Shown here piece after piece: positions 44,229-62,273 of a DNA stretch of 64,000 bases. The position numbers were made by a program, and so were the translations under genes. This stretch comes from an uncultured Myxococcales bacterium (GTDB lineage Bacteria > Myxococcota_A > UBA9042 > DTJE01): contig CAINDP010000075.1 of NCBI GenBank assembly GCA_903847405.1, positions 47,331-111,330 of the forward strand, given 5' to 3'. The notes under the pieces are model-generated. The model saw nothing but the letters and a program-made list of their open reading frames with translations, had not been told where the DNA came from and ran no database searches. Positions within the stretch are counted from its first letter, which is position 1, and each line of letters starts with the position of its first letter.

Positions 44229-44413
44229 GCCGTTTCTCCGGCCGACGCAGGGGCGCGGGCCATACCATTCAATGACACCAACTTGGCGCCCTGATGCGGG
44301 CGATCCTACGATCGCCGCGCGGCCGTGGCAAAGGCGACGCAGGCCGGGGGCGTCGAAAGGTGTCCCCCGGGGGCCTGCGATTCCGGGGCCTGCCGCGGCG
44401 CCAGGGAGTCGGG

Positions 44414-44968
44414 ATGCACGGAAAGACCACGGCATTGCTGGTGATTGCGGCCTTCGCGGCGGCCTGCGCGACGACCTCGACGACCACGAACGCCGGCCGC
44501 TCGCCGGCCCAGGCCCGTCGCCCCGCACCCAAGGTCGAAACCCCCAACCCGAAGGCCTCCGACCGCTGCCGGGACCTCCTGCCCCTGATCCGCACGGCGG
44601 CCTCCGAGGCGAACATGGACCCGGCGCTGCTGGTCGGCCTGGTCCGCACCGAAAGCAACTTCCGCCCCGACGCCCGCAGCCCGGTCGGCGCCATGGGCCT
44701 GACGCAGGTCATGCCCCTGACCGGCCGGGCCAAGAAGTGCGGCGACCTGTCGAACCCCATGGAAAACCTGCGCTGCGGCCTCCGCGTCCTGGGGGCGTTC
44801 ATGAAGTGGTACAAGGGCGACATCTACCTGTCGCTGTCGGGCTACAACGCAGGCCACGGCATGCCGGACAAGGCGGCACGCACCCACGGCCTCCCCGCGA
44901 ACGCCGACTATGTCGAAGCGGTCCTGTGGGGACGGGCGAGGTTCCTGAACCGCGGGTGCGACTTCTGA
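44414..44968 (+). CDS. Lytic transglycosylase-type lipoprotein
   Basis: Predicted 184-residue lipoprotein (lipobox FAAAC, Cys18) with a Pro/Arg spacer and an SLT domain (about 60-175). The catalytic Glu is in LVRTESNFRP, followed by SPVGAMGLTQVMP and the late motif LSGYNAGHG, all typical of family 1 lytic transglycosylases that cut peptidoglycan to 1,6-anhydro-muramic ends. AGGGAG lies before the ATG. It precedes the group of large lipoproteins on the other strand, with 24 bp between convergent stops. Confidence 0.9.
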   Translation: MHGKTTALLVIAAFAAACATTSTTTNAGRSPAQARRPAPKVETPNPKASDRCRDLLPLIRTAASEANMDPALLVGLVRTESNFRPDARSPVGAMGLTQVMPLTGRAKKCGDLSNPMENLRCGLRVLGAFMKWYKGDIYLSLSGYNAGHGMPDKAARTHGLPANADYVEAVLWGRARFLNRGCDF

Positions 44969-44992: not shown

Positions 44993-45409
44993 CTACTCCG
45001 CAAACAGCAGCAGGAACGCGACGACCTTGCGCTTCATGGACTCGCTGTCCGTGAAGCCGTCCACCGTGTAGAAGATCGACCCGTGGCGACGGACCGTGCC
45101 GTTTCCCTCGATCTCCCACTCGATCGACCCGCTCTTGCGCACGTAGCGACCGTCGATTTCCGCGACGATCGAACCCCGCTGGCGGACGTACCGCCCGTCG
45201 AACTCCATCACGATCGACCCGGACCGACGGACGTTGTTCCCGTCGAATTCGGCGACGATGGACCCCCGCTGGCGCAGATGGTTGCCGTCGATTTCGGCCA
45301 CGATCGAGCCGCTCTTGCGGATGTTCGCGCCGGCCTGCGCCAGGCCTGGGAGCAGCAGTACCAGGGCCAGGGCGATCCCGGCCGCAGCGCCACGCGTCGT
45401 CGTCGCCAT
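44993..45409 (-). CDS. Exported protein of six 15-residue beta repeats (beta-flower-like)
   Basis: Predicted 138 residues: signal peptide (about 1-26, ending LAQA), then six tandem repeats of consensus xxRxxGSIxxExDGx (for example NIRKSGSIVAEIDG, HLRQRGSIVAEFDG, YVRQRGSIVAEIDG) to about residue 118, then a short helix. Each repeat should be a beta hairpin, and together they would close into a small ring. The layout recalls the 5-fold beta-flower family of periplasmic proteins, whose role is unknown. Repeats are also visible in the DNA with a 45-bp period. The gene lies directly downstream of the large cysteine-rich lipoprotein genes on the same strand. Confidence 0.75.
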   Translation of the reverse strand: MATTTRGAAAGIALALVLLLPGLAQAGANIRKSGSIVAEIDGNHLRQRGSIVAEFDGNNVRRSGSIVMEFDGRYVRQRGSIVAEIDGRYVRKSGSIEWEIEGNGTVRRHGSIFYTVDGFTDSESMKRKVVAFLLLFAE

Positions 45410-45492: not shown

Positions 45493-47649
45493 TCAGTAGA
45501 CGTTCGTGATCGTGCCCGCGATGGCGCTGAACTTGATGCCGATCGACGCGGACTCCAGTTCGCCGTCCCCGTCGCCGTCGATGTCCGGCACCACCAGGAT
45601 ATCGATGAAGGACAGGATCGTCGCCTTGTCGATCTGCTCGATGGTCCACGGTTCGATCGCCGTGATGGCATCGATCATCTGCTGCTTGGGCACCGCGCCG
45701 CCCAGGATGCCGGTCATGTTCGTGACCTTGCCGCCGGCCACGACGACGTTCGCCTCCAACCGGGTCATGTAGAGATCGACGTGCAGGTTGATGCCCGCCA
45801 GGGGCAGATCGAACGGGAAGCGGTAGTTCATGCCGCCTGCCGTCAGCTTGGTGCCGACGATCTTGGCGTTGTCCAGGGTGACCAGCGGCGAGCATTCCGG
45901 CCAGTCCTTGAAGATGGCCTTGTCCACGATGTACTGGCAGTTCTGGGTCTTGAAGTCGCAGGTCGCGTTGGCCGGGTCCAGCTTGCCGGCATAGAAGGCC
46001 AGGGTGTAGGCGCCGCCGTCGGTCCGCAGGTTGCGGTGCTCGAACAGCAGGATGATCGAACCGTCATCCATGGCCTTGGTGATGCCTTCCTGGGCCACGG
46101 GCAGCCCCGCCAGCGGGCCCAGGGCGTTGTCCAGGCCGCAGCAGCAGTCGTCCGCGGGCCCGCACGTCGCAAGGTCCTCGTCCAGGTTCAAACCGTTGCC
46201 GGCATTCCCGTTGTCGGCGATGCCCATCGTGACGAACTTGCTGACCGCCGGCGCGAACGTGTAGGTGCACACGTCGCACGCCGAGGTGTCGGCGACGCAG
46301 GCGCCGGCCGCGCAGTGGTCGCCGGTGGAGCAGTCGCGGCCGTCGTCGCAGGTCAGGGTGTCCTGGGCCGTGTGGATGCACTTGCCCGCTTCGCAGGAGT
46401 CCAGCGTGCACTCGTTGCCGTCGTTGCAGTTCTTGGACACGCCCGAGCAGTAGCCGGCCTCGCACGAATCGTTGACCGTGCAGGAGTTGCCGTCGTTGCA
46501 GGAGGCCGTGTTGTTCGTGTTGATGCACGCCAGCGTGATCGGGTCGCAGTCGTCGTTGGTGCAGGGGTTGTTGTCGTCGCACTTGCTGACGCCACCCTCG
46601 CAGCACGTGTTGTCGGTGATGTCGTGCCAGCACCCGGTGATCAGGTTGCAGCCGTCCAGCGTGCAGATGTTGCCGTCGTCGCAGTTCGTGGGCAGGCCCG
46701 TGCAGGTGCCGCCGAAGCACGTGTCGTCCAGCGAACAGGCGCTGCCGTCGTCGCAGGGAATGTCGCTGAGCGCCGTGTGCTCGCACCCGGTCGCCGCGTT
46801 GCAGGAATCCTGCGTGCAGGCGTTCCCGTCATCGCACCCGGCGGTCAGCGGGATGATGCACTTGCCTTCCATGCACGTGCCCGCCTTGCAGCGGTCGTCC
46901 AGGACGCACGCCTCGCCGCCCGGGGACGCCGCGTGCACGCAGGCGCCGGTGACCGCGTCGCAACTGTCGGCGGTACAGGTGCTGTTGTCGTCGCAGGCAT
47001 TGGGGAACGTCGCGTCCGGCACGCACACGCCGGCGGCGCACTTGCCCGACAGGGCGATCTGGCACATCGGCATGATGGTCGACGGGTCGCAGGCGGTGTC
47101 GTCGGCCTGGGCCTGGAACGCCCCCTTGTCCGAACCGGGCTGGCACGAAAGGCAGGGATTGTAGGGATCCAGGTCGTCCTTGGCCCGGCAGATGCCGTTG
47201 ACCAGGCAGGTGGTGGCCTGGATGGTGAACTGGCAGTTCCCCTTGCCGTCGCAGGTGTCGTCCGTGCAGTCGCGCCCGTCGTCACAGGTGTAGGTCGTGC
47301 CGCCGACGCACTCGCCGGCCGCGTTGCAGGCTTCGCCCCAGGTGCAGGCGCTTTCGTCGTCACAGGGGTCGCCTTCCTTGCACGTGGGCACCACGTCGAC
47401 CGGCGTGTCGGTCACGACGCCCTCGTCGGCAACCGGCAGGTCCCCGGGCACGTCCAGACCGTCGTCGGTCCCCGGATCGCGTCCCGGATCCCCGACCGCG
47501 TCCGGCACGTCCGTCAGCAGGACGTCCAGCACGTCGTCGCCCGGATCCGTCCCGGGACCATTGTCGGTCGCGGGCGTCGAGGAATCCCCGCAGGCAGCCA
47601 GGGCCAGCACGGCCCACAGCATCACGGTCGTCATCAGCATGCGTCGCAT
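45493..47649 (-). CDS. CDDGN-repeat cysteine-rich lipoprotein with a distinct C-terminal domain
   Basis: Predicted 718 residues. Lipobox LALAAC (Cys20), a spacer rich in Asp/Pro/Val (25-85), then about ten disulfide-type modules of the form CDDGNxCTxDxC...GCxH (about 90-460). The C-terminal part (463-718) is different from that of the two following paralogues: it has paired cysteines (CGPADDCCCGL, CDFKTQNC) and ends in strands around DILVVPDIDGDGDGELESA, a possible calcium-binding Asp loop. GGAGGTGACC precedes the ATG. Such repeats occur in large surface lipoproteins of Myxococcota; binding partner unknown. Confidence 0.75.
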   Translation of the reverse strand: MRRMLMTTVMLWAVLALAACGDSSTPATDNGPGTDPGDDVLDVLLTDVPDAVGDPGRDPGTDDGLDVPGDLPVADEGVVTDTPVDVVPTCKEGDPCDDESACTWGEACNAAGECVGGTTYTCDDGRDCTDDTCDGKGNCQFTIQATTCLVNGICRAKDDLDPYNPCLSCQPGSDKGAFQAQADDTACDPSTIMPMCQIALSGKCAAGVCVPDATFPNACDDNSTCTADSCDAVTGACVHAASPGGEACVLDDRCKAGTCMEGKCIIPLTAGCDDGNACTQDSCNAATGCEHTALSDIPCDDGSACSLDDTCFGGTCTGLPTNCDDGNICTLDGCNLITGCWHDITDNTCCEGGVSKCDDNNPCTNDDCDPITLACINTNNTASCNDGNSCTVNDSCEAGYCSGVSKNCNDGNECTLDSCEAGKCIHTAQDTLTCDDGRDCSTGDHCAAGACVADTSACDVCTYTFAPAVSKFVTMGIADNGNAGNGLNLDEDLATCGPADDCCCGLDNALGPLAGLPVAQEGITKAMDDGSIILLFEHRNLRTDGGAYTLAFYAGKLDPANATCDFKTQNCQYIVDKAIFKDWPECSPLVTLDNAKIVGTKLTAGGMNYRFPFDLPLAGINLHVDLYMTRLEANVVVAGGKVTNMTGILGGAVPKQQMIDAITAIEPWTIEQIDKATILSFIDILVVPDIDGDGDGELESASIGIKFSAIAGTITNVY

Positions 47650-47704: not shown

Positions 47705-50700
47705 CTACTTCACGTTGCCCGACAGAACGTTGTACGCGTTGGCCCGCAGGATCTCGCGGATCTCGATCGAAATGGCCGTGCCCGCCGGCAGGCCCTCGAT
47801 CATCCCCGAAAGGTCCAGGGACGGGATCGGGAAGGTGCCCAGGGACTCGCCCGTCAGCGACGCCAGCAACTGCGGGATCAGCGTCGTGCGGATCAGGTTG
47901 CCCAGGGTGTCCTCGGCGCCGACCAGGCCGCCCGACAGGCTGGCGATCTCGATGTCGATGAACGACGGCGAATCCACCGCGATGGAGATCTGCTTGCCGG
48001 TGGGAGTATCCACCGCTTCCAGGCGGGCCGCGGCTTCCAGCGACGCGAACATCTGCATCTGGACCGGGGTCCCGAACAGTTTCATGTCGACCACGACGCC
48101 CAGGTCGCCGATCTGCAGGCGCAGGGCGTTCTGGTCGTTGCAGGTGGACAGGATCGGCGGCAGCATCAGGTCGATGCTCAGGTTCATGTCGGTGATTCCA
48201 TAGGACGACAGGTCCACGCTGCCCAGCATGGAGGCCGGAACCGGCAGCGTCAGCGCCCCCGCCCAGAACAGGGCGTAGGGGATCTGGTTGAAGAAGTCGT
48301 CGTGCAGCCCGATTTCCAGCGCGGGGGGCGTCGGGGTCTGGGAGCCGACCGGGTACGAGGGCACGGGTTCCACGACGCCGGTCAGGCACCCGGCCCGCCC
48401 GATCGACCCCAGCACCGCATGCTGCACGCCGTGGGTCGTGACGATGGTCGCCTTCAGGCCCACGGTACAGCCCGTGGTGTGGCACAGGATGGTCGACAAG
48501 GTGGATCGCAGCCCCAGCGAGGTGGCGGCGCCCCCGGGAATGAACGCCGGGATGTCGAAGTCCGTGTTCAGCGCCAGGCTGGACAGCGCGTCCTGCAGCG
48601 TCGGCACGATCTGGTCGATCTGATCCTGGAAGGCGGACACCAGCGCATCCTGCAGCGTGCTCTTCAGCAGCGGCATGATCAGGTTGATCAGCCAGTTGCT
48701 GGTGTCGACGTTCAGGGTGCCCATCGTCACCGAAGAGGTCCCTGGGGTGACGACCGCCTGGCCGTTCGCGTCCACCGACAGGCCCAGCGACGCCGCGATC
48801 TTCAGCCAGTCCACCGTCGCCGTGCCGTCGAAATCGCCCAGCACGCAGAACGTGCCGCTCATGTCCGCGTGGAACTTCACCACGATGTTGTTCAACTGCG
48901 CCACCAGGCTGAGGCCGCCCTCGACCGGCGCGATCGACACGCCGATGTTGTTGGTGTTGAACGTGATGCTGTTCACGTTGATCTTGTAGTTGCATCCGAC
49001 CTGCGAACCCGTCGCCATCGGGTTGGTGATGAACGACATCAGGTCCATGGTCTTGAGGTACAGCACGATGATGTCGGCGATGCTGTTCGGGGTGCCGGTG
49101 CGGTCGCTGTCGTCCCAGACCTTCGGGCCCAGGAACATCATCAGGCCGTCGTTCACCATCGACTGCGCCGGGTTCGTGTCATCCACCGGGTACCACTGGC
49201 TGCTGAAGTAGTACGACTGCACCACGTGGTCCTTCAGCCCCTGGATGTCCTCGGCGTCCACCACGATCGGGTTGAAGCCCTGGTGCGAGTCGATGTCGAA
49301 GGTGAACGAGTTGTCCACCGGGTTCGCCAGGACCGGCTGGCCGTTGATCATCAGGGACGGGATCATCCAGCCGTCGAGGCCCGACGTGATGTGCCCGACC
49401 ACCGTGACGGTCTTGGTCGTTCCCAGTTTCGCCGACAGCGGGTCCAGCGTGGCGCCGCGGGGCGGGTAGTCGATGACGACCTGCGGGCGGCACTCGGGGC
49501 GGTTTTCCACCTTGTGCTGGCAGCCGTTCAGCGGATGGCACGTGTCGGTGGTGCACTGCATCCCGTCATCGCACCAGTCCGCCGGGACCGTCCCCTTGCA
49601 GACGCCGTCGCCATGGCAGACGTCGTCCTGGGTGCAGACGTTGTTGTCGTCGCAGGTGGCCGTGTTGAAGGGATGCGTGCAGCCTTCGCCCGCCGCGCAG
49701 ACGTCGTCCGTGCAGGGGTCCTCGTCCTCGCAGCTCAGCGCGCCCGTGCCGTGCTGGCACTCGCCGCCGCCGCACGTGTCGTTCAGCGTGCAGGGATCGG
49801 CGTCGTCGCAGCCCTCGGTGTTGTTGACGAACACGCACCCGACGCCGGGCTCGCAATGGTCGGTGGTGCAGGGGTTGAGGTCGTCGCAGGGCAGCGCGTC
49901 CTTGCCCGCCTCGCAACCGGCCTTGCGACAGGTGTCGCCGACGGTGCAGGGGTCGTTGTCGTTGCACGGGGCCACGTTCGGGATGTGGACGCAGCCGCCC
50001 ACGCGGTCCGGCACGCAGCCGTCGTCGGTGCAGGGGTTGAGGTCGTCACAGGCCAGGCGCTGGTCGCCCGAGGTGCAGACGCCCTGGACGCAGGCGTCGC
50101 CGACCGTGCAGACGTTCCCGTCGTCACAGGTCTTTTCGATGGGCTCGTGGCTGCACCCGGTCGCGGGCGAGCAGGAGTCCAGGGTGCATTCGTTGTCGTC
50201 GCTGCAATCGGTCGCTACGGTTGCGCAGTCCCCGCTCTGGCAGTGGTCGCCGGTCGTGCAGGCGTTCCCGTCGCTGCAGGCCGTGCCCGTCAGCGCCGTG
50301 TTGACGCACTCGCCGTCGATGCACGCGTCGGAGGTGCACTCCTCGCCGTCGTCGCAGCTCATCGCGCCGGGCTTGCAGATGCCGCCCAGGCAGCGATCGC
50401 CCATGGTGCAGCCGTTGCCGTCGGTACACGGCAGAGTGTCGTCCGCCAGGAAGTGATCGCCGGCCAGGGCGCTGACGCATCCCATGCAGGCGTTGGCCGG
50501 GTCGACCTCGCCGTCCTCGTAGCAGGATTCCCCCACCAGGCACCAGCCCGGCTTCACGACGTGCGTGCACTCGGTCGCGGTCGAACAGGCGTCCGCGGTG
50601 CAGTCGAAGGTGTCGTCACAGGCCGCGACGACCGTGCCCTTGCAGACGGCGTCCACGCAGATGTCGCCCACCGTGCAGGGATTGCCGTCGTCGCAGGGGT

Positions 50701-50959
50701 CCCCTTCCGTGCAGGCCGGGGGGGTCGTCGTGTCGACCGCATCGGCGTCGTCCGTGACGTCGTCGACCGGGATCACGTCGGGCCGGACGCTGGTGTCCGA
50801 GGTCCCGTCGTCCCCGGCCGGCACGTCCAGCGTGTCCATCACGACGTCCGGGACGACGGTCGTGTCCGCCGTGTCGGTCCCTCCACCGCAGGACGACGTC
50901 CCCATCCCCATCACCAGTGCCGCGACCGCGATCCATCCGGCTCCGCGTACCCGCATCAT
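47705..50959 (-). CDS. CDDGN-repeat lipoprotein with a BPI/TULIP-like C-terminal half
   Basis: Predicted 1,084 residues: lipobox-like GTSSC (Cys24), Asp/Thr/Val spacer to about 80, at least twelve cysteine-rich CDDGN-CT modules (82-490), then about 590 residues with few cysteines starting VVIDYPPRGATL. That part alternates beta strands with two amphipathic helices: near 756-785 (NWLINLIMPLLKSTLQDALV) and near 1,030 (TLGNLIRTTLIPQLLASL), the latter ending FPIPSLDLS. Motifs LHDDFFNQIPYALFW (about 886) and the final FPIP resemble, in order and spacing, the second barrel of BPI/LBP lipid-binding proteins. This is a pattern match by eye. GGAGGAG precedes the ATG; an upstream ATG is less likely. 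Confidence 0.75.
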   Translation of the reverse strand: MMRVRGAGWIAVAALVMGMGTSSCGGGTDTADTTVVPDVVMDTLDVPAGDDGTSDTSVRPDVIPVDDVTDDADAVDTTTPPACTEGDPCDDGNPCTVGDICVDAVCKGTVVAACDDTFDCTADACSTATECTHVVKPGWCLVGESCYEDGEVDPANACMGCVSALAGDHFLADDTLPCTDGNGCTMGDRCLGGICKPGAMSCDDGEECTSDACIDGECVNTALTGTACSDGNACTTGDHCQSGDCATVATDCSDDNECTLDSCSPATGCSHEPIEKTCDDGNVCTVGDACVQGVCTSGDQRLACDDLNPCTDDGCVPDRVGGCVHIPNVAPCNDNDPCTVGDTCRKAGCEAGKDALPCDDLNPCTTDHCEPGVGCVFVNNTEGCDDADPCTLNDTCGGGECQHGTGALSCEDEDPCTDDVCAAGEGCTHPFNTATCDDNNVCTQDDVCHGDGVCKGTVPADWCDDGMQCTTDTCHPLNGCQHKVENRPECRPQVVIDYPPRGATLDPLSAKLGTTKTVTVVGHITSGLDGWMIPSLMINGQPVLANPVDNSFTFDIDSHQGFNPIVVDAEDIQGLKDHVVQSYYFSSQWYPVDDTNPAQSMVNDGLMMFLGPKVWDDSDRTGTPNSIADIIVLYLKTMDLMSFITNPMATGSQVGCNYKINVNSITFNTNNIGVSIAPVEGGLSLVAQLNNIVVKFHADMSGTFCVLGDFDGTATVDWLKIAASLGLSVDANGQAVVTPGTSSVTMGTLNVDTSNWLINLIMPLLKSTLQDALVSAFQDQIDQIVPTLQDALSSLALNTDFDIPAFIPGGAATSLGLRSTLSTILCHTTGCTVGLKATIVTTHGVQHAVLGSIGRAGCLTGVVEPVPSYPVGSQTPTPPALEIGLHDDFFNQIPYALFWAGALTLPVPASMLGSVDLSSYGITDMNLSIDLMLPPILSTCNDQNALRLQIGDLGVVVDMKLFGTPVQMQMFASLEAAARLEAVDTPTGKQISIAVDSPSFIDIEIASLSGGLVGAEDTLGNLIRTTLIPQLLASLTGESLGTFPIPSLDLSGMIEGLPAGTAISIEIREILRANAYNVLSGNVK

Positions 50960-51000
50960 TGCTGCTCCTCCCAACCCGCCCATCCCCGGGCGAGCATTGC

Positions 51001-54000
51001 CTACTTGATCTGTCCCGAAACGACGGTGTTGCCCGTGATCCTCAGAAGTTCCCGGATGTCGATCGCGATCTTGCTGCCGGCCGGCAACTGCGGCGCGATG
51101 GCATGCAGATCGATTTCCGGGATCGGGAACGATGCCAGGGTGTTGCCCGAAAGCGCCTTCAGCACCATCGGGATCGCAGTGTCCCGGATCAGCTTGCCCA
51201 GGGTGTCTTCCGCCCCGACCAGGCCGCCGGACAGGCTGGCGATTTCAATGTCGATGAAGACCGGCTCGCTGATCGCCAGGGCCAGTTCGTTGCCCCCCGA
51301 CGCGCCCACCTGGATGAAGACCTTGGCCTCGGAGTTCAGCGATGCGTACATCAGCATGGTCACCGGGGTGCCGAACAGCTTCATGTTCACCAGGACGCTG
51401 ACGTCGCCGCACTGCAGCATCAGCTTGCCCTGGGGATTGCAGGCCGACAGGATCGGCGGCAGCAGGAAGTCGATCTGCAGGGTCATTTCGCTGATGCCGT
51501 AGGCGCTGAGGTCCACGTTCGCACCCAGGGCCGCGGGATCCAGCGGCAGGTTCAGGCCGCCGCCCCAGAACAGGGCGTAGGGGATCAGGTTGAAGAAGTC
51601 GTCGTGCAGCCCGATTTCCAGAGGCCCGTGCTTCGGGAAGACCAGGGCGCCTTCCGGGGCGCCCAGGCACGACGCGCGGCCGATGGAGCCCAGCGGGGAA
51701 TGGGGCGTGCCCCGGGGCGTCAGGATCGTCGCCTTCATCCCGATGGTCCCGCCGGCCGGCGTGAAGTCCAGGATCGACGGCTTGGCCACGATGTGCAGGC
51801 TGAGGGGGTTCGTCCCGGGCAGGAACGCCGGCAGGGCGAAGGTCTGATCCAGGGCCAGGCCCGAGATGGCGTCGGCGATCGCCGACCCGATCTGGTCCGC
51901 CAGCACGGCCTCGAACTGCGTTTCGATCATCGTCGTGAACGTGCCCTCGAAGAACCCGATGATCCAGTTCAGCAGGAAGCCCCACAGCCCGTCCAGCGAG
52001 ACGCTGAGGCCGCTGACGACCACGTCCGGGTTGACGACGGAGGCCTGGGGGTTGCCGTTGGCGTCCATGGACAGCAGCGCCGTCGCGGAAATCGTGATCG
52101 ACGACATGCTGGCGTTGCCGCTGAAGTCCGGGCAAGCGAACCCGCTGATCGGGACGTCGATGTCGACGCGGAAGTTCGGGATCGTGGCCTTGAAGAACAG
52201 GCCGCCCCAGGTCGGGACCAGGTCCACGGCGATCTGGCCGAAACGGATGTGGTTCAGGTTCACCCGGTAGCTGCACCAGCCGAACTTGCCGCTGGTCACC
52301 GGGTTCTGGATCAGGCTGCCGATGTCCATGTTCTGCACGAACAGCGTCAGGATGGTCGCGATGTCGTCGGGCGTGCTGGTGTCGTTGTCGTCCCAGACTT
52401 CCGGGCCCAGGAACATTTCCAGGCCGTTGTTGATCATCGACTTGTCGGGAGTGGCCTCGTTCACCGGGTACCAGGTCGTCGAGTGGTAGAACGACTGCAC
52501 GAGGTGATCGGAGTAGCAGGTCTGGCCGGGAATCTGGCAGCCCACGTCCTCGGCGTTGACCACGATCGGGTTGAAGCCCTGGTTCACGGTGTAGGCATAG
52601 CCCGCCAGGGTTTCACCCGCGTCGCCGCGGCACGCGAAGGTGTTGTCGATGGGGCTGACGGCGCAGTCGCGGCCGTTGATGGTGACGAACGGCACCAGCA
52701 GCCCGGGCTTCGGGTACTCGATGTGTCCCCGGACCCCCAGCTTGGTGCGGCCCGCGGCGTCGCGGATCGGGAGGCCGTCGGCCCCGGCGATCGTCTGGTA
52801 GCTGTTCAAGGTGGCGGCGCGGGGCGGGTAGTCGATGACGATGCCGGGACGGCACTCGGGAAGGCCCTTGTGGCCGCAGCCGCCCTCGGGCCGGCAGAAG
52901 TCGCCGGTGCAGTCGTTGCCGTCGTCGCAGATGCCGGGCAGCAACTGGCCGATGCACACGCCCGCCGTGCAGGTGTCCGTCATCGTGCAATCGTTGTTGT
53001 CCTCGCACGGGTCGGCGTTCGGCCGGTTGATGCAGCCGATGCCCACCTCGCACGAGTCGTCGGTGCAGACGTTGCTGTCCTCGCACACCAGCGGCGTCGG
53101 GCCGGGGGCGCACGCGCCCTCCTTGCAGACGTCGTTCAGGAAGCACGGCTCGCCGTCGTCGCACGGGTCGGTGTTGGCCACGGTGGCGCAGCCCACGCCG
53201 CGCAGGCACCGATCGTCGGTGCAGGGGTTGAGGTCGTCGCAGGCCAGCGTGTCCAGGCCGGGCTGGCACGCCCCGCGGCGGCAGGCGTCGCCCAGGGAGC
53301 AGGGGTCGCCGTCCTCGCACGGGGCGATGTTCGGAATGTTCACGCAGCCGTCCGGGCGGGTGGGGACGCACCCGTCGTCCGTGCAGGCATTTTCGTCGTC
53401 GCAGTTCAGGCGGTCCGCGCCCGACTGGCAGATGCCCAGCCCGCAACGATCGCCCGAGGTGCAGATGTTGCCGTCGTCGCAGGGGTCCGTGTTGAACTCG
53501 TGGACGCACCCGAACTGCCCGTCGCACCGGTCGGCCGTGCACGGGTTGTCGTCGTCGCAGTCGAGGGCCTGGCCCTGGCATACGCCGGCGGCGCAGGCGT
53601 CCTGCACGGTGCAGATGTTGCCGTCCTCGCAGGGGCCTTCGACGTTTTCGTGCGTGCAGGTTCCGCTGCTGCAGGCGTCGCGGGTGCAGGCGTTCCGGTC
53701 GTCGCAGTCCAGCGGGGCGGACAGGCAGGCGCCGGCCCGGCAGTGGTCGCCGGAGGTGCAGGGGTTGCCGTCGTCGCAGGCCACGTTGTCGTCCGGGATC
53801 AGGTCGTCCTGAACCAGGGCGGTGACGCAGGAACGGCAGGGCCGGGCGGGGTCCACGGCGCCCTCGGCAAAGCAGAGGCCCTCGACCAGGCACCAGCCGG
53901 GCAGGGTCGCGTGGGTGCAGTCCGCCGCGGTCGTGCAGACGTCCTGGGTGCAGTCGATGCCGTCGTCGCAGGCCTCGGCCAGGGTCCCGACGCACGTTTC

Positions 54001-54327
54001 GTCGTCCTGGCACTGGTCGTCGAAGGTACAGGAATCGTTGTCGTCACAGGCCGTCCCCGGCACGCACGGCGGCGGCGGCGGCACGTCCTGGCCCGGGTCC
54101 ACGGCGGTTCCGTCCGGACCGGTGTCCCGGACGGTGGGAGTGTCGTCCTGCAGCCGGTCCTCGGGCACGGTCCCGTCGGCACCGTCCGCCGGTTCGACGT
54201 CCATCGTGGGGGGCAGGTCGTTCCCGGGGAGGTCCTTCGAGGCGGGCGATCCTCCGCCGCACCCCGCCAGGGCCAGCGCCGCGATGGCGAACGCAAGGCA
54301 TGCCAACAGGTTGCCGCGCTGACGCAT
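51001..54327 (-). CDS. CDDGN-repeat lipoprotein with a BPI/TULIP-like C-terminal half (paralogue)
   Basis: Predicted 1,108 residues, a clear paralogue of the next gene: lipobox LALAGC (Cys21 or near), spacer, cysteine-rich modules (about 88-489) and a C-terminal half beginning VIDYPPRAATL. Shared motifs include SFYHSTTWYPVNEA (here) against SYYFSSQWYPVDDT, GLEMFLGPEVWDDNDT against GLMMFLGPKVWDDSDR, LHDDFFNLIPYALFWGG, and a final FPIPEIDL. It has one extra disulfide insert (CRGDAG, CQIPGQTC) near 570-610. GAGGAGG precedes the ATG; the open frame extends upstream without support. Only 41 bp separate it from the second copy, which fits tandem duplication. Confidence 0.75.
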   Translation of the reverse strand: MRQRGNLLACLAFAIAALALAGCGGGSPASKDLPGNDLPPTMDVEPADGADGTVPEDRLQDDTPTVRDTGPDGTAVDPGQDVPPPPPCVPGTACDDNDSCTFDDQCQDDETCVGTLAEACDDGIDCTQDVCTTAADCTHATLPGWCLVEGLCFAEGAVDPARPCRSCVTALVQDDLIPDDNVACDDGNPCTSGDHCRAGACLSAPLDCDDRNACTRDACSSGTCTHENVEGPCEDGNICTVQDACAAGVCQGQALDCDDDNPCTADRCDGQFGCVHEFNTDPCDDGNICTSGDRCGLGICQSGADRLNCDDENACTDDGCVPTRPDGCVNIPNIAPCEDGDPCSLGDACRRGACQPGLDTLACDDLNPCTDDRCLRGVGCATVANTDPCDDGEPCFLNDVCKEGACAPGPTPLVCEDSNVCTDDSCEVGIGCINRPNADPCEDNNDCTMTDTCTAGVCIGQLLPGICDDGNDCTGDFCRPEGGCGHKGLPECRPGIVIDYPPRAATLNSYQTIAGADGLPIRDAAGRTKLGVRGHIEYPKPGLLVPFVTINGRDCAVSPIDNTFACRGDAGETLAGYAYTVNQGFNPIVVNAEDVGCQIPGQTCYSDHLVQSFYHSTTWYPVNEATPDKSMINNGLEMFLGPEVWDDNDTSTPDDIATILTLFVQNMDIGSLIQNPVTSGKFGWCSYRVNLNHIRFGQIAVDLVPTWGGLFFKATIPNFRVDIDVPISGFACPDFSGNASMSSITISATALLSMDANGNPQASVVNPDVVVSGLSVSLDGLWGFLLNWIIGFFEGTFTTMIETQFEAVLADQIGSAIADAISGLALDQTFALPAFLPGTNPLSLHIVAKPSILDFTPAGGTIGMKATILTPRGTPHSPLGSIGRASCLGAPEGALVFPKHGPLEIGLHDDFFNLIPYALFWGGGLNLPLDPAALGANVDLSAYGISEMTLQIDFLLPPILSACNPQGKLMLQCGDVSVLVNMKLFGTPVTMLMYASLNSEAKVFIQVGASGGNELALAISEPVFIDIEIASLSGGLVGAEDTLGKLIRDTAIPMVLKALSGNTLASFPIPEIDLHAIAPQLPAGSKIAIDIRELLRITGNTVVSGQIK

Positions 54328-56730: not shown

Positions 56731-59073
56731 ATGAAGACCGGAATCAAGCCCCCGTTTTCCCCGTCCTGGACCCTCCTGGCGTTCGCCGCGCTGTGGATCG
56801 CCGCCGCAACGCCACGGGTCGCCCTGGCCGGGAAGGGCGTGGCGCCCCACGCACCCGCCGCGGCGCCGCTGTCGGTGGACGACCTGTCGCCGCAGTACCG
56901 CACGCCGGCGGCGCAGGCCGCCGCGGAACGTGCCGGCGCGGGCGACTGGGCTGGTGCGCGGACGGCCCTCCTGGCTCTGGCCGCGGACGGCCGCCTCCCC
57001 GAACAGCCCGAGCGGCTCCGCTTCCTGCTGGGGATGGCGTGCCTGAAGACGGGCGACCTGATCGGCGCCGCGGCCGTCCTGGACGGGCTGGAAGGCGAAC
57101 TCCCGCTGCTGGCGGACCGGATCCTGTGGATGCGCGGGACGGCGCTGGCGGGACTGGGCCGGGCTGCGGAGGCCGCCGAGGCGTTCGCCCGCGTGCCCGA
57201 AACCTCGCTGCTGGCGGCCCAGGCCCGGGATGCCCGTGCCGACGCCCTCCTGGCCGCGGGCAATGCCGCCGAGGCGGCCGGCCTGCTGCAGAAGGCCCTG
57301 GCCGTGACCGGGGATGCCGGGCTTGCGCACCGTCTGGCCGGGGCCCTCCAGGCGGCCGGGGACAAGGCCGGGGCGGAAAGAGCCCTGCGCACCGCGTTCG
57401 ATCGGGCGTCCTCCTCCGGGCGTCGGGCCCTGCGTGCGGCCCTCGAAGCCCTCGGGGCCGACCTCCCGCCCCCCAACGGCGAAGCCGACGCCCTGGAAGC
57501 AGCCCGGGACCTGCTGGACGCCCAGCGCAGCGAGGAAGCGGTCAAGGCGGCGGGCGCCCTGCTGGAAAGCGCCGACCCGACGGTGCGCTGCGAGGCGCGG
57601 AAGATCCGCGCCGGGGCGCTGAGCAAGCTGCGACGCCACCCCGAGGCGCTGGTGGACTACCGGGGCGCCCTGTCGGTCTGCCAGGACACCACCGACCTGG
57701 CCCGACTGCTGTTCAACGCGACCCGCAGCGCCTACCGGGCCGGCGAGACGTCCGAGGGCGATCGCACCGCGAATCGCCTGGCCGCCGAGTTCCCGACCGC
57801 GACCTTCAACGACGACGTCGCCGTCATGCGGGCCCGGCAGGCCATCGGCCGGGGCGACGCCGGCAGCGCGGACGCCCTGCTCCTGGCCTCGATCCGGGCC
57901 TGGCCGACCGGCGACATGGCGAACGAGTCCCGGTGGCTGCTGGCGTGGGCCGCCTGGACGTCGGGCGACCGGGCGCTGGCGGCACAACGCTGTCGCGACG
58001 GGCGGAAGGACGCGGGCGACGACCCCGACTATGGCTCCCGGTTCGCCTACTGGGAGGCCCGCGCGCTGCAGAAGGCCGGTCGGCGCAAGGAGGCCGACGC
58101 GGCCTTCGCGTCCACAGCGTCGTCCTACCCGATGACGTTCTATGCCGTCCTGGCGCTGGACCGGCTGGCGTCCCTGCGCCGTTCGACCCCCGAAGACGTC
58201 CTGAAGGAGGTGACGGTCGGTGCGGCGCGGCCCGGGCCGTTCTTCACGCCCTCCTCGCCGAGCGCCCTCGAGGAGGGCCCGGCGGCGCGAATCCTGTGGC
58301 TGGCCCGCACCGGGCTGCCGGATCTGGCCCGGGACGAGGCGATCGCGACCGCGGATCGGGACGGCGACGCGGGCTGGCTGGCGGCGATGCTGCTGGACGC
58401 GGCGGGCCTGTACACGCGGTCGCACCGCACCGCCGCGGCGCAACTGAAGGCGATGGGAGCGTTCTGGCCCGACGCCCGGACCGCGGGCTACATGCGCCTG
58501 GCCTGGCCCCGTCCGTTCAAGGACATCGTCGAGCGGGCGGCCCGGGAGTCCGCGGTCGACCCGATGCTGATCTGGGCGGTCATGCGGCAGGAAAGCGCCT
58601 TCGTCACCGGGGTCGAGTCCCGTGCGAACGCCATCGGCCTGATGCAGTTGATCCTGCCCACGGCCCGCAGCATGGCGAAGGTCCTGCGCCTGGAGGCGAC
58701 GCCCGAGACCCTGCGGCGCCCCGAGGTCAACGTGCGCCTGGGCGCGGCGTACCTGTCCCGACTGATTCGCGACCTGCACGAAACCCTGCTGGCGATCCCC
58801 GGGTACAACGCGGGCGGCGGCGCGATCGCGCGGAAACTGACCGAACTGCCCGGGGCGCCCCTGGACGAGGTCGTGGAGTCGATCGGAGCCACGGAAACCC
58901 GCGACTACGCCCGGAAGGTCTTCGAGAACTGGTCGGCCTACCGCTGGTTGTATGCGACGGGCAAGGACCGCCTGCCCCGGGTGTCGTTCGATCGTGGAAA
59001 GGCCGAAAAGGCCGCGAAACCCGCAAAGCCCGCAAAGCCCTCGAAGGCCAGCCGCGGAACTCGACGACGCTAG
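56731..59073 (+). CDS. Soluble lytic transglycosylase with TPR-like superhelix (Slt70-type)
   Basis: Predicted 780 residues: signal peptide (about 1-33), a long Ala-rich helical superhelix (about 50-590) and a C-terminal SLT domain (about 600-745). The catalytic Glu is in VMRQESAFVTGVESRANAIG, followed by LMQLILPTA and the YNAGGG motif. The fold and length match E. coli Slt70, which degrades uncross-linked glycan strands. A Lys/Pro/Ala-rich tail closes it. Its stop TAG and the stop of the convergent HD-GYP gene share the four bases CTAG (59070-59073). Confidence 0.9.
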   Translation: MKTGIKPPFSPSWTLLAFAALWIAAATPRVALAGKGVAPHAPAAAPLSVDDLSPQYRTPAAQAAAERAGAGDWAGARTALLALAADGRLPEQPERLRFLLGMACLKTGDLIGAAAVLDGLEGELPLLADRILWMRGTALAGLGRAAEAAEAFARVPETSLLAAQARDARADALLAAGNAAEAAGLLQKALAVTGDAGLAHRLAGALQAAGDKAGAERALRTAFDRASSSGRRALRAALEALGADLPPPNGEADALEAARDLLDAQRSEEAVKAAGALLESADPTVRCEARKIRAGALSKLRRHPEALVDYRGALSVCQDTTDLARLLFNATRSAYRAGETSEGDRTANRLAAEFPTATFNDDVAVMRARQAIGRGDAGSADALLLASIRAWPTGDMANESRWLLAWAAWTSGDRALAAQRCRDGRKDAGDDPDYGSRFAYWEARALQKAGRRKEADAAFASTASSYPMTFYAVLALDRLASLRRSTPEDVLKEVTVGAARPGPFFTPSSPSALEEGPAARILWLARTGLPDLARDEAIATADRDGDAGWLAAMLLDAAGLYTRSHRTAAAQLKAMGAFWPDARTAGYMRLAWPRPFKDIVERAARESAVDPMLIWAVMRQESAFVTGVESRANAIGLMQLILPTARSMAKVLRLEATPETLRRPEVNVRLGAAYLSRLIRDLHETLLAIPGYNAGGGAIARKLTELPGAPLDEVVESIGATETRDYARKVFENWSAYRWLYATGKDRLPRVSFDRGKAEKAAKPAKPAKPSKASRGTRRR

Positions 59074-60632
59074 CCCAGGGCGGGAACCGCCATCCGGTGC
59101 GCCAGGCAGTCCATTTCCAGCCTCACGCCGATCGTGGCCAGGAACGCACGAACGACGGCGGGGTCGAAGTGGTGGCCGGAGCCGTTCCGGATTTCGTTCA
59201 CGGCCACCGCCGAGTCCATGGCCTGGCGGTAGGGGCGGTCCGACGTCATCGCATCGTAGGCGTCGGCGACCGCGATGATGCGGGCGACCAGCGGAATCTC
59301 CTCGCCCTTCTGCCCTGACGGGTACCCGTTACCATCCCAGTGCTCGTGGTGGTGCAGGACGGATTCGAGGGCCTCGCGCAGGAAGCCCACCGGGTGCAGG
59401 ATGCTGTCGCCGATCACCGGGTGGCGCTCGATGATCGCCCGCTCCTCGTCATTCAGGCTGGCGGTCTTCAGCAGCACCGAGTCCCGCACGCCGATCTTGC
59501 CGATGTCGTGCAGCAGCGCGGCCTGCTCCAGGATCTCGATGTCGCGGGGCGACAACTCCATCAGCCGCGCGATTTCCGTTGCGTAGGTCCGCACGCGCTC
59601 GGAGTGCCCGTGGGTGTACGAGTCGCGCATTTCCAGGGCCTGGGCCAGCGCACGGATGGTCTGGTAGAAGGTCTTCCGGTTCGTTTCATGCAGCCGGGCA
59701 TTTTCGATCGCCGACGCCACCTGGTGGGCGAACGTCGCGAACAGTTCCAGGCTGGTCGGGTTGAAGGCGTGGGACTTGGGGCTTTCCGCCATGATGACGC
59801 CGACCACGCCCTTGGGCCCGTGGATCGGGGCGGCCATCTCGCAACGGGCGTCGGACAGGCCGGCCACGTGGTCGGGGTCGGCGGACACATCGGGGACCAG
59901 GATCGCTTCGCCCTGCTCCAGGCACCGCCACGCGACGCCCTTGCCGCGCGGGATGCGCAGCCCCGTGCCGACCCCCTCCCCGAAGCCGTAGTGGCCCCGG
60001 ACGATCAGTTCCTCGCCCTCCCACAGCAGCAGCGCGCACGAGCGGAAGAAGAGGGTCTGGCGGGCCAGTCCCATCGCGCCGTCGATCAGGCTGTCCAGAT
60101 CCGTGAAGGTCGCGATGCGCATCCCGATTTCGTTCAGGGCTGCCAGGTCCCGGGCCCGCGTCTGCAAACGGGCCGCATCGGCGCTGGCGCGCTCGACCAG
60201 GCGGGCGTTGTGCAGGGAGGCCGACACGTTCACGGCGAACAGGCCCAGGAGGTCCAGTTCCTCGGCGGTCAGCGCGTCGGTCCGCGCCAGGTCGGCCGCC
60301 AGGACGCCCACGGCCCCGTCGTCCGTCACCAGGGGAACGCCGACCCGCACGCCCTCCAGCACCGCGCACTGCAGCGTGGCCCGCTCGGACAGGGCGCGTC
60401 CCTCGATCCCCTCGCCCGGACGCAGGCACAACCGGACCGCGTCGGACGGCCGATACCCCCGGGACTTGAACATCCGCAGGACCCCGGCGTCCTCGTCCAG
60501 CAGCAGGATGGCGCAGGAGGTCAGCCCGAAGATGCGCTCGGCCCACCAGAGCCCCTTTTCGAGGACCCCGTCGACGGTGCGGTCCGACTCGAACTCGCTG
60601 CCCGCCGCGGAAATCAATCGGAGCGCACGCAT
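59070..60632 (-). CDS. GAF-GAF-HD-GYP signalling protein
   Basis: Predicted 520-residue cytoplasmic protein. Two GAF-type sensor domains (about 15-160 and 175-325) precede an HD-GYP phosphodiesterase domain (about 340-510) with LLHDIGKIGV, LHHHEHWDGNGYP and ADAYDAMTSDRPYR. HD-GYP domains hydrolyse cyclic-di-GMP (or cGAMP in some lineages). All metal ligands visible here appear intact, so it is likely active. The promoter -10 overlaps an upstream ATG (60659), so the later ATG at 60632 is the better start. The input ligand is unknown. Confidence 0.9.
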   Translation of the reverse strand: MRALRLISAAGSEFESDRTVDGVLEKGLWWAERIFGLTSCAILLLDEDAGVLRMFKSRGYRPSDAVRLCLRPGEGIEGRALSERATLQCAVLEGVRVGVPLVTDDGAVGVLAADLARTDALTAEELDLLGLFAVNVSASLHNARLVERASADAARLQTRARDLAALNEIGMRIATFTDLDSLIDGAMGLARQTLFFRSCALLLWEGEELIVRGHYGFGEGVGTGLRIPRGKGVAWRCLEQGEAILVPDVSADPDHVAGLSDARCEMAAPIHGPKGVVGVIMAESPKSHAFNPTSLELFATFAHQVASAIENARLHETNRKTFYQTIRALAQALEMRDSYTHGHSERVRTYATEIARLMELSPRDIEILEQAALLHDIGKIGVRDSVLLKTASLNDEERAIIERHPVIGDSILHPVGFLREALESVLHHHEHWDGNGYPSGQKGEEIPLVARIIAVADAYDAMTSDRPYRQAMDSAVAVNEIRNGSGHHFDPAVVRAFLATIGVRLEMDCLAHRMAVPALG

Positions 60633-60663
60633 GGTCCCATTCGCCCGGCAGTAAACCATCCGC

Positions 60664-60693
60664 ACGATAGCACCGCGCCCGCGGCCGCACCAA
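60664..60693 (-). promoter_or_regulatory. Promoter of the HD-GYP gene
   Basis: On the minus strand TTGGTG (60688-60693), 18-bp spacer, TATCGT (60664-60669). Predicted start of transcription is near 60657, just after an in-frame ATG at 60659, which favours translation from 60632. Confidence 0.35.
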
Positions 60694-60769
60694 GCAGACG
60701 ACCTGCGTCCGCGAAACCCCGGAGCCCAACCGCCATGCCACGTTGCAGACGCTTCGTAGACGCTCCGCG

Positions 60770-60799
60770 TTGACGTGCCGCGGGATCGTCGCGTATCCT
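60770..60799 (+). promoter_or_regulatory. Promoter of the nucleotidyltransferase-HD gene
   Basis: TTGACG (60770-60775), 18-bp spacer, TATCCT (60794-60799). The two hexamers are the same as in the rplC promoter. The leader to the ATG is about 43 bases and contains AAGGA eight bases before the start. Confidence 0.6.
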
Positions 60800-60848
60800 C
60801 GCTGGCCGCTTCCTCGGGGAGGCGGGGAACGACAGAAGGATCTTGCCG

Positions 60849-62273
60849 ATGACGACGCCTCCGACTGCTGCGCCCGTCCGCTACCCCGACACCCTGCGGG
60901 CCGTGATCAACGCCTTCGAAACGTCCGGCAGCCGTGCCTACCTGATCGGCCCCCGGGCACGGGACCTGGCCCTGGGCCACCCGATCGACGAGGCCACCTC
61001 CTTCGACCTGACCGTGGACGGTTCGTTGTCGACCATCGACGCGACGATGCTGACCCTCCTGAACGTGACGGCCCAGGACGCCAAGGACGACCGCCCGCGC
61101 CTGCTGACCTTCCGCGTCCCCCGGGGCGAGGGCCACCTGACGTTCAACATCGGCCCGTTCCGGAACTACCTTCCGCCGCTGCGATCCCTGCGCGGCCAGA
61201 ACCTTTCGGGAATCATCCTGGATCTGGCGACCCGCGAAGTCACGATGCAGGCCTTCGGGTACGACGCCGACGGCGGACTGGTGGACCCCTTCGGGGGGAC
61301 CCTGGACCTGGCCGAGCGCGTCATCCGTCCGGTGTTCCCCGTGGACACCCTGTTCCGCGAAAGCGCGTCGTGGCTGCTGAAGGTGGCCCGGTACGTGGCG
61401 CGCTACGGGTTCGACGCGGCCCGGGAGGTGCGCCAGGCCGCCGACCGCGACGCCGCCGGCATCCTGGACGTGCCGCGCGAAATCTGGCGCAAGGAAATGG
61501 AAAAGATCCTGTGCGGGGCCTTCCCCGCCAAGGGTCTGCAATACATGGCCGACACGCGGGTGCTGGGGTTCCTGATCCCGGAAGCGGCGGCCCTGGTGTC
61601 GTTCGGCGAAAGCGCCAGCGGCCAGCACAAGGACATCTGGGCGCACACGAAGCAGGTCGTCGCGAACGCCGAGGCCACGCCCGTGGTCCGGTGGGCGGCC
61701 CTGTGCCACGACATCGGAAAGGTGTGGACCAAGCAGGTCTTCCGGGACGAAAAGGTCCACTTCTTCCGGCACGAGGACATGAGCGCCATGCTGTGGGAGG
61801 CGGTGGCCGCGCGGTTCGAGGTCCCGCCCCGCGACGCGACGCGGATCCACTACATCATCCAGAGCCACAGCCGCGTGAACCTGTACCGCGAGGAGTGGAC
61901 CGACAGCGCCGTCCGACGCCTGATGCGCGAGGTCGGCGAGCACCTGGACGACCTGATCGCCTTCAGCCGGGCGGACCTGACGTCCAAGCGCACCGAGCGG
62001 GTCGAAATGGTGCGGTCGCTGCTGACCGAACTGCAGATCCGCGTCCTGGAAATCCGGGAAGCCGACGCCCAGCAGAGCCCGCTGCCCAAGGGCATCGGGA
62101 ACGCGATCATGGCGCGCTTCGGCATCGCGGCGGGGCCCGAGGTCGGCCGCCTGCGCGACGTGCTGCTGTCCGGGGTCGAATCGGGCGCGCTGCCCGGCGG
62201 CGCCGAAGCGGACGTCTACCTGGAATGGCTGGCGCCCATCGTGGCCGAGCGGGCCTCCGACGGCGAGGCCTGA
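60849..62273 (+). CDS. CCA-adding/poly(A) polymerase-like protein with degenerate nucleotidyltransferase site and HD domain
   Basis: Predicted 474 residues with the layout of class II tRNA nucleotidyltransferases: head (1-140), neck/body (150-260) and an HD domain (about 265-370; LCHDIGKVWT). The family signatures are altered. GG-VRD reads IGPRARDLALG, the catalytic Asp-x-Asp region reads TSFDLTVDG with only one Asp in place, and the RRD motif reads ATREVTMQAFGYD. The enzyme may therefore not transfer nucleotides; the HD phosphohydrolase part looks intact. The head also retains LVDPFGGTLDL. ATG at 60849 has AAGGA upstream. A true CCA enzyme would be expected elsewhere in the genome because the tRNA here lacks CCA. 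Confidence 0.8.
   Translation: MTTPPTAAPVRYPDTLRAVINAFETSGSRAYLIGPRARDLALGHPIDEATSFDLTVDGSLSTIDATMLTLLNVTAQDAKDDRPRLLTFRVPRGEGHLTFNIGPFRNYLPPLRSLRGQNLSGIILDLATREVTMQAFGYDADGGLVDPFGGTLDLAERVIRPVFPVDTLFRESASWLLKVARYVARYGFDAAREVRQAADRDAAGILDVPREIWRKEMEKILCGAFPAKGLQYMADTRVLGFLIPEAAALVSFGESASGQHKDIWAHTKQVVANAEATPVVRWAALCHDIGKVWTKQVFRDEKVHFFRHEDMSAMLWEAVAARFEVPPRDATRIHYIIQSHSRVNLYREEWTDSAVRRLMREVGEHLDDLIAFSRADLTSKRTERVEMVRSLLTELQIRVLEIREADAQQSPLPKGIGNAIMARFGIAAGPEVGRLRDVLLSGVESGALPGGAEADVYLEWLAPIVAERASDGEA

Follow-up and report, generated by a model that had tools for sequence, protein, structure and literature searches.

Putative stalked lipoproteins of a Myxococcales bacterium with a predicted double TULIP part related in sequence to BPI and LBP

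We analysed a stretch of 64,000 nucleotides (the window) from contig CAINDP010000075.1 of an uncultured Myxococcales bacterium, in which two adjacent genes on the minus strand, here called gene A and gene B, encode large predicted lipoproteins. Our analysis revealed that, at the level of the protein family, the C-terminal part of these proteins is related in sequence to the lipid-binding proteins LBP and BPI through its first barrel, and that both of its barrels are predicted to have the TULIP fold. An earlier note had reported adjacent lipoprotein genes of 1,084 and 1,108 residues, each product with a CDDGN-CT cysteine-rich stalk and a two-barrel, BPI-like lipid-binding half. We confirmed this observation: genes, lipobox-like signals and stalks are all present, and the TULIP interpretation is supported. 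The features of both genes are as follows.

51001..54327, minus strand: TULIP gene A (P0002), a predicted lipoprotein of 1,108 amino acids
52861..54066, minus strand: cysteine-rich CDDGNxCT stalk of gene A, about residues 88-489 (PF00526 Dicty_CTDC, E 1.9e-10, 7 stretches; 16 C-x5-C[TSF] motifs)
52465..52860, minus strand: Ig-like domain of gene A, recognised by alignment with the one modelled for gene B (6 of 18 members of profile A3 match PF09136 Glucodextran_B)
51001..52464, minus strand: BPI-like double TULIP part of gene A (PF01273, E 1.5e-4, below cut-off; TULIP profile, E 1.1e-240, the sequence itself being in the profile; profile A4 compared with LBP/BPI)
47705..50959, minus strand: TULIP gene B (P0001), a predicted lipoprotein of 1,084 amino acids
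49499..50713, minus strand: cysteine-rich stalk of gene B, residues 83-487 (PF00526, E 8.5e-20, 9 stretches; 17 C-x5-C[TSF] motifs)
49199..49498, minus strand: Ig-like domain of gene B, residues 488-587, predicted by the model
47705..49156, minus strand: BPI-like double TULIP part of gene B, residues 602-1084, a predicted fold

The link to BPI was detected by ordinary profile search. A profile of 18 stalk-free sequences found LBP and BPI in the PDB at E-values from 2.6e-11 to 2e-9; the entry ranked next stood at 0.21. With a more diverse, TULIP-only profile (A4), LBP was found at 1.2e-13 and BPI at 4.3e-12 and 4.7e-12, and no other PDB sequence at E <= 10. Profiles A3 and A4 held 18 sequences each, picked for spread; A1 combined the window piece and P0002 with 23 of the 48 proteins from the search for relatives, which scored only the 7,992 candidates with most shared words, and A2 from the window piece and 29 of 36 proteins. 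PF01273, the Pfam model of the BPI N-terminal domain, matched 17 of 18 family members at E <= 0.1. At E <= 0.001 it was present in 37 of 52 related genomes (over the curated cut-off in 17 of the 52) and in none of 14 control genomes, a single one of which had a match at E <= 10, below the cut-off. Collectively, these results firmly support sequence homology of the first barrel to LBP and BPI at the family level.

The structure model predicted both barrels as a TULIP pair, head-to-head, the same two barrels as in BPI, which was a better match than P47; identity in the structural alignments with the BPI family was 14-17%. The second barrel was placed from this model and from a segment, LHDDFFNQ, that aligns weakly with the start of the second half of BPI (second stretch of the A4 alignment, 4.3-4.4 bits). 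The earlier note had taken about 600 residues after the stalk as BPI/LBP-like. This applies to the final 483 residues or so in both proteins; the preceding 100 or so are predicted to form a separate Ig-like domain between stalk and double barrel. Of the 18 subfamily members aligned, 17 retain the double-barrel part at almost full length, and in all 18 it is acidic (isoelectric points between 4.05 and 5.68, net charges from -8 to -50). The cysteines of the N-terminal barrel of BPI form a disulfide; in the A4 alignment the BPI cysteines stand opposite non-cysteine consensus positions, and the family has conserved cysteines of its own.

The fold, the superfamily and bacterial TULIPs are already known, and the Pfam model already flags some members of this family. 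P47, OrfX2 and OrfX3 of Clostridium gave a structural match much weaker than that of BPI (root mean square deviation 8.1), and these proteins are not known to have a stalk or a lipoprotein anchor. With the eukaryotic BPI, LBP, CETP and PLTP (PF01273) the window proteins share homology of the first barrel, but they are bacterial predicted lipoproteins with a cysteine-rich stalk and an Ig-like domain, they are acidic with other cysteines, and the Pfam model of the BPI C-terminal domain does not match them. A 2019 study proposed DUF4403 (PF14356) as a bacterial double TULIP by remote profile comparison (PMC6791001). DUF4403 is likewise full-length, and most of its proteins are predicted to be acyl-anchored in the outer membrane, but its linker is 20-25 residues (PMC6791001) where the window proteins have a stalk. 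Alignment of its profile with that of our family gave an hhalign probability of 3.4%, and a control profile built on DUF4403 proteins of this phylum (A5, 14 of 20 loci) found no BPI or LBP in the PDB. A search of the window's genome at E <= 1e-5 gave no DUF4403 match; PF14356 matched neither P0001 nor P0002 at E <= 10, and 1 of 18 A3 members at E 0.086. TraA of Myxococcus is likewise secreted, with cysteine-rich repeats proposed as a stalk (PMC3325183), but it carries a PA14-like receptor domain and MYXO-CTERM and no TULIP, an analogy of plan only. New here are a bacterial double TULIP that is linked to BPI/LBP by sequence, the plan of a stalked lipoprotein, a conserved partner with a domain that we call X, and the spread across a whole class. 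We found no paper on BPI/TULIP proteins of Myxococcota among the listings from searches of the open-licence PMC literature.

The products of gene A, gene B and the partner gene (P0003) all begin with a signal and lipobox cysteine (Cys23 in A, Cys24 in B); then come an acidic linker rich in Asp and the stalk with its CDDGNxCT repeats, which in A and B leads on to the Ig-like domain and the double barrel. By a simple pattern, which in some proteins may match a cysteine inside the signal and not the lipid site, such a signal was present in 40 of 49 TULIP proteins and 35 of 37 X proteins, the count leaving aside P0050, which is too short. Of the nine TULIP proteins that lack it, P0005 and P0028 begin within the stalk. 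P0005, P0028, P0029 and P0089 start inside the stalk or at the Ig-like domain and P0088 and P0090 further in, and all six look like cut genes. Gly directly follows the lipobox Cys in at least 27 of the 40 pattern matches. NCBIfam models gave only weak, sub-cut-off matches on the window proteins, of the lipo-invert anchoring model to the N-terminus of P0002 and P0003. The stalk of P0003 also matched PF00526 Dicty_CTDC in Pfam (E 1.2e-17). Linker and stalk together exceed 450 residues in the TULIP proteins of the window, and the stalk cysteines are presumably disulfide-bonded. Many other proteins of the window's genome carry the CDDGNxCT stalk: of 119 matches to profile A1, which includes the stalk, 114 covered the stalk part only, several per protein and on many contigs.

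TULIP matches were found in all 52 genomes of relatives in a search up to class level, with 1 to 10 per genome. In a sample of the phylum 145 of 282 genomes matched at E <= 1e-5, namely every one of the 52 class genomes and 93 of the 230 others; 10 of these 93 are strong (E < 1e-79), and the other 83, with best E-values of 1.3e-35 to 1e-5, may be Ig-like domains only. The 14 named loci are labelled as Myxococcota, Myxococcales or Deltaproteobacteria bins and, in two cases, as Oligoflexales or a proteobacterium. The window's genome has at least five TULIP genes among the matches listed (the two here and one each on contigs C120, C91 and C156), six matches being counted. A tandem TULIP pair was seen on one contig in seven genomes, all of the window's family; in a small tree the tandem A genes cluster together, and the tandem B genes group with the TULIP genes of loci L010 and L012. 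An A4 search for stalkless or eukaryotic relatives gave 7 matches, all of the same family, six of them the apparently cut genes named above and the seventh P0091; since this search needs shared 5-residue words, the absence of eukaryotic ones means little.

Downstream of gene B the minus strand carries two further genes.

45493..47649, minus strand: partner gene (P0003), a predicted lipoprotein of 718 amino acids with a stalk and a C-terminal domain X
45493..46287, minus strand: domain X, residues 455-718 of P0003 (AlphaFold pLDDT 91.5, pTM 0.88)
44993..45409, minus strand: small secreted repeat protein of 138 amino acids, 6-fold beta-flower-like (PF21786 Bflower_3)

The order on this strand is gene A, gene B, P0003 and the small repeat gene. 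Only 41 bases separate A from B and 55 bases B from P0003, a spacing that suggests a single operon of all four; a promoter and terminator scan of the region found nothing above chance. In 39 of the 52 genomes at class level a TULIP match is immediately followed downstream by the best X match, a count in which the best X row was used for 48 genomes, those without a listed row (G035, G041, G047, G049) were taken as not adjacent, and TULIP rows were chosen as relevant from among the matches listed. Domain X would be a physical partner of the TULIP protein. Its model gave no confident fold match in the PDB, and a C-terminal PDIDGDGDG segment resembles a calcium-binding loop. Domain X also occurs away from TULIP genes (for example at G000:C137:8592-11306), with at least three copies in one open frame of 3,466 amino acids. 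The small protein consists of repeated GSIVAEIDG-like units and matched Bflower_3 at E 4.6e-6, with 27 bits against a cut-off of 34; similar small genes stand beside the cassette in loci L006, L008, L011 and L049. Among the 16 loci compared with the window by simple gene calls from GC position, single cases showed other neighbours: a MMPL-type exporter, a LolA_like and a DUF1302-like gene in a row upstream of the TULIP gene in L052 (522-5605), and, in L054 (10422-14070), genes for a TonB-dependent receptor and cytochrome D1 that immediately precede the TULIP-X pair. In the window, two lytic transglycosylase (SLT) genes on the plus strand lie on either side of the region (44384-44968 and 56731-59073), and a GAF and HD-domain protein (PF13487, PF13185) is encoded at 59070-61943 on the minus strand. 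A plasmid collection searched with P0001 gave no match.

We also compared the distribution of these genes with that of fatty-acid synthesis. The wording of a published report on this pathway may take in M. xanthus, which we doubted, and FabF and FabD were therefore tested in the genomes. The report states that no fatty-acid synthesis pathway was found in Bradymonadia (PMC11509652). Of the 52 class genomes none had FabF over its curated cut-off and 14 had FabD over its own; both were missing at E <= 1e-20 in 14 of 52, of which 8 are at least 90% complete. Fatty-acid synthesis is thus likely altered or lost in parts of the class. Outside the class FabF was over the cut-off in 169 of 230 genomes, in 3 of 10 with a strong TULIP match versus 166 of 220 without (Fisher p 0.004, ancestry uncorrected). 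Post hoc, none of the 59 sample genomes with both a strong TULIP and an X match had FabF over the cut-off, and G120, for example, retains a FabF-like gene (3.6e-109). For five genomes with strong TULIP and no FabF row listed (G085, G120, G149, G157, G239), 'below cut-off' was taken from the best E-value.

Our tentative reading, which we put a little short of an even chance, is that both proteins are tethered carriers that capture lipids from outside the cell. TULIP barrels carry lipids in known cases (PMC5507252). An outer-membrane lipoprotein would present a BPI-type TULIP barrel pair at the tip of a cysteine-rich stalk, the barrels would capture lipid from prey, debris or neighbours, and this lipid would be passed on to the membrane; with the double barrel on a tethered stalk, the carrier would be kept at the cell envelope. 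We infer the outer-membrane placement, the lipid in the barrels, their outward orientation and uptake as the direction. The two adjacent TULIP genes may serve two kinds of lipid, and, given their acidic charge, lipopolysaccharide (LPS) is a less likely cargo than neutral or zwitterionic lipids, fatty acids or esters.

Other explanations have to be set against lipid capture. The double barrel may be a periplasmic shuttle, anchored at the inner leaflet of the outer membrane and moving lipids between the two membranes with the stalk for reach, which we regard as unlikely but worth serious attention. Outer-membrane lipoproteins of E. coli have no Asp at +2, and by this rule the Gly of at least 27 of 40 signals is of the outer-membrane type. 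PMC6791001 applies the same rule and suggests inner-to-outer membrane traffic for diderm TULIPs and, for most DUF4403 proteins, an acyl anchor in the outer membrane. The exporter, LolA_like and DUF1302-like genes of L052 would also suit a shuttle, but they are a single case. A stalk of this length, compared with the short DUF4403 linker, would fit surface display better; a rigid-stalk role has been proposed for the cysteine-rich repeats of TraA (PMC3325183), and up to 10 matches per genome are many for a housekeeping role. It is less probable still that the barrels are an adhesion or structural tip that no longer carries lipid. A stalk followed by an Ig-like domain is a common plan of surface adhesins, and the wide matching of the stalk repeats in their own genome favours such a tip too; a spacer, however, would not need a double barrel kept at nearly full length.

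Exchange of membrane lipids between neighbouring or kin cells, by analogy with the myxobacterial TraAB system, appears improbable to us. TraA has a cysteine-rich repeat region and TraAB is required for outer-membrane lipid exchange (PMC3325183), but Pfam and NCBIfam found no PA14, OmpA or MYXO-CTERM family in the three window proteins, the class is known here only from genomes, and its class-wide presence is uninformative on social life. Least credible is a BPI-like weapon or LPS binder acting on other Gram-negative cells to damage or recognise them. LBP and BPI are indeed the closest solved relatives by sequence; but the double-barrel parts are uniformly acidic, whereas BPI is described as cationic (PMC11048543), and the BPI cysteines in the A4 alignment stand opposite non-cysteine positions of the profile.

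A wider proposal joins lipid capture to descent: the stalked proteins would be the closest known bacterial kin of BPI/CETP, a double-barrel BPI outside eukaryotes, with inheritance from bacteria or transfer between them and early eukaryotes, and the TULIP-X pair would be a lipid-scavenging system marking Myxococcota lineages that gave up canonical fatty-acid synthesis and live on the lipids of others. Taken as a whole we consider this rather unlikely. A series of results weighs against the main reading, lipid capture. On the two window proteins PF01273 reached 16.9 and 21.9 bits, under the curated cut-off of 28.8, and in 15 of 52 genomes it had no match at E <= 0.001. The second barrel alone (profile A6, C half only) found no BPI in the PDB at E <= 10, and the Pfam BPI C-terminal domain was absent from both window proteins at that threshold. 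In a strand-alternation test for a hydrophobic lining, 1 strand of the 14 gave a significant result; the second helix was not amphipathic (p 0.97). The stalk is not universal among relatives: P0091, a double-barrel relative of 914 amino acids from a Myxococcota bacterium that looks complete, lacks the C-x5-C[TSF] motif altogether, and the barrels are thus combined with N-terminal parts of more than one kind. In the 16 loci and the window, X and the small flower-like gene were the only cassette neighbours that recurred across groups. As for fatty-acid synthesis, some FabF-like match is retained in 36 of 52 class genomes, the window's included; the latter has FabD over the cut-off (268.7 bits) and a FabF-like gene at 386.8 bits against a cut-off of 493.75, so that a need for outside lipid does not follow. 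Three strong-TULIP genomes of family f39, the three exceptions outside the class, have canonical FabF and no X match. The FabF association was sought after reading a paper, covers about six lineages and carries no ancestry correction, and as TULIP is universal in the class, it cannot be tested there. Because the FabF pattern is post hoc, spans few lineages and leaves FabF-like genes in place, lipid capture is held below even probability and its rivals are kept.

In summary, our results tie the tips of stalked, predicted bacterial lipoproteins to BPI and LBP in sequence, and the BPI design would thus not be confined to eukaryotes. As this homology is within reach of an ordinary profile search, the origin of the BPI family is open to a test by trees. 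For a whole class of Myxococcota-type bacteria there is now also a candidate system for handling lipids, together with its conserved partner gene.
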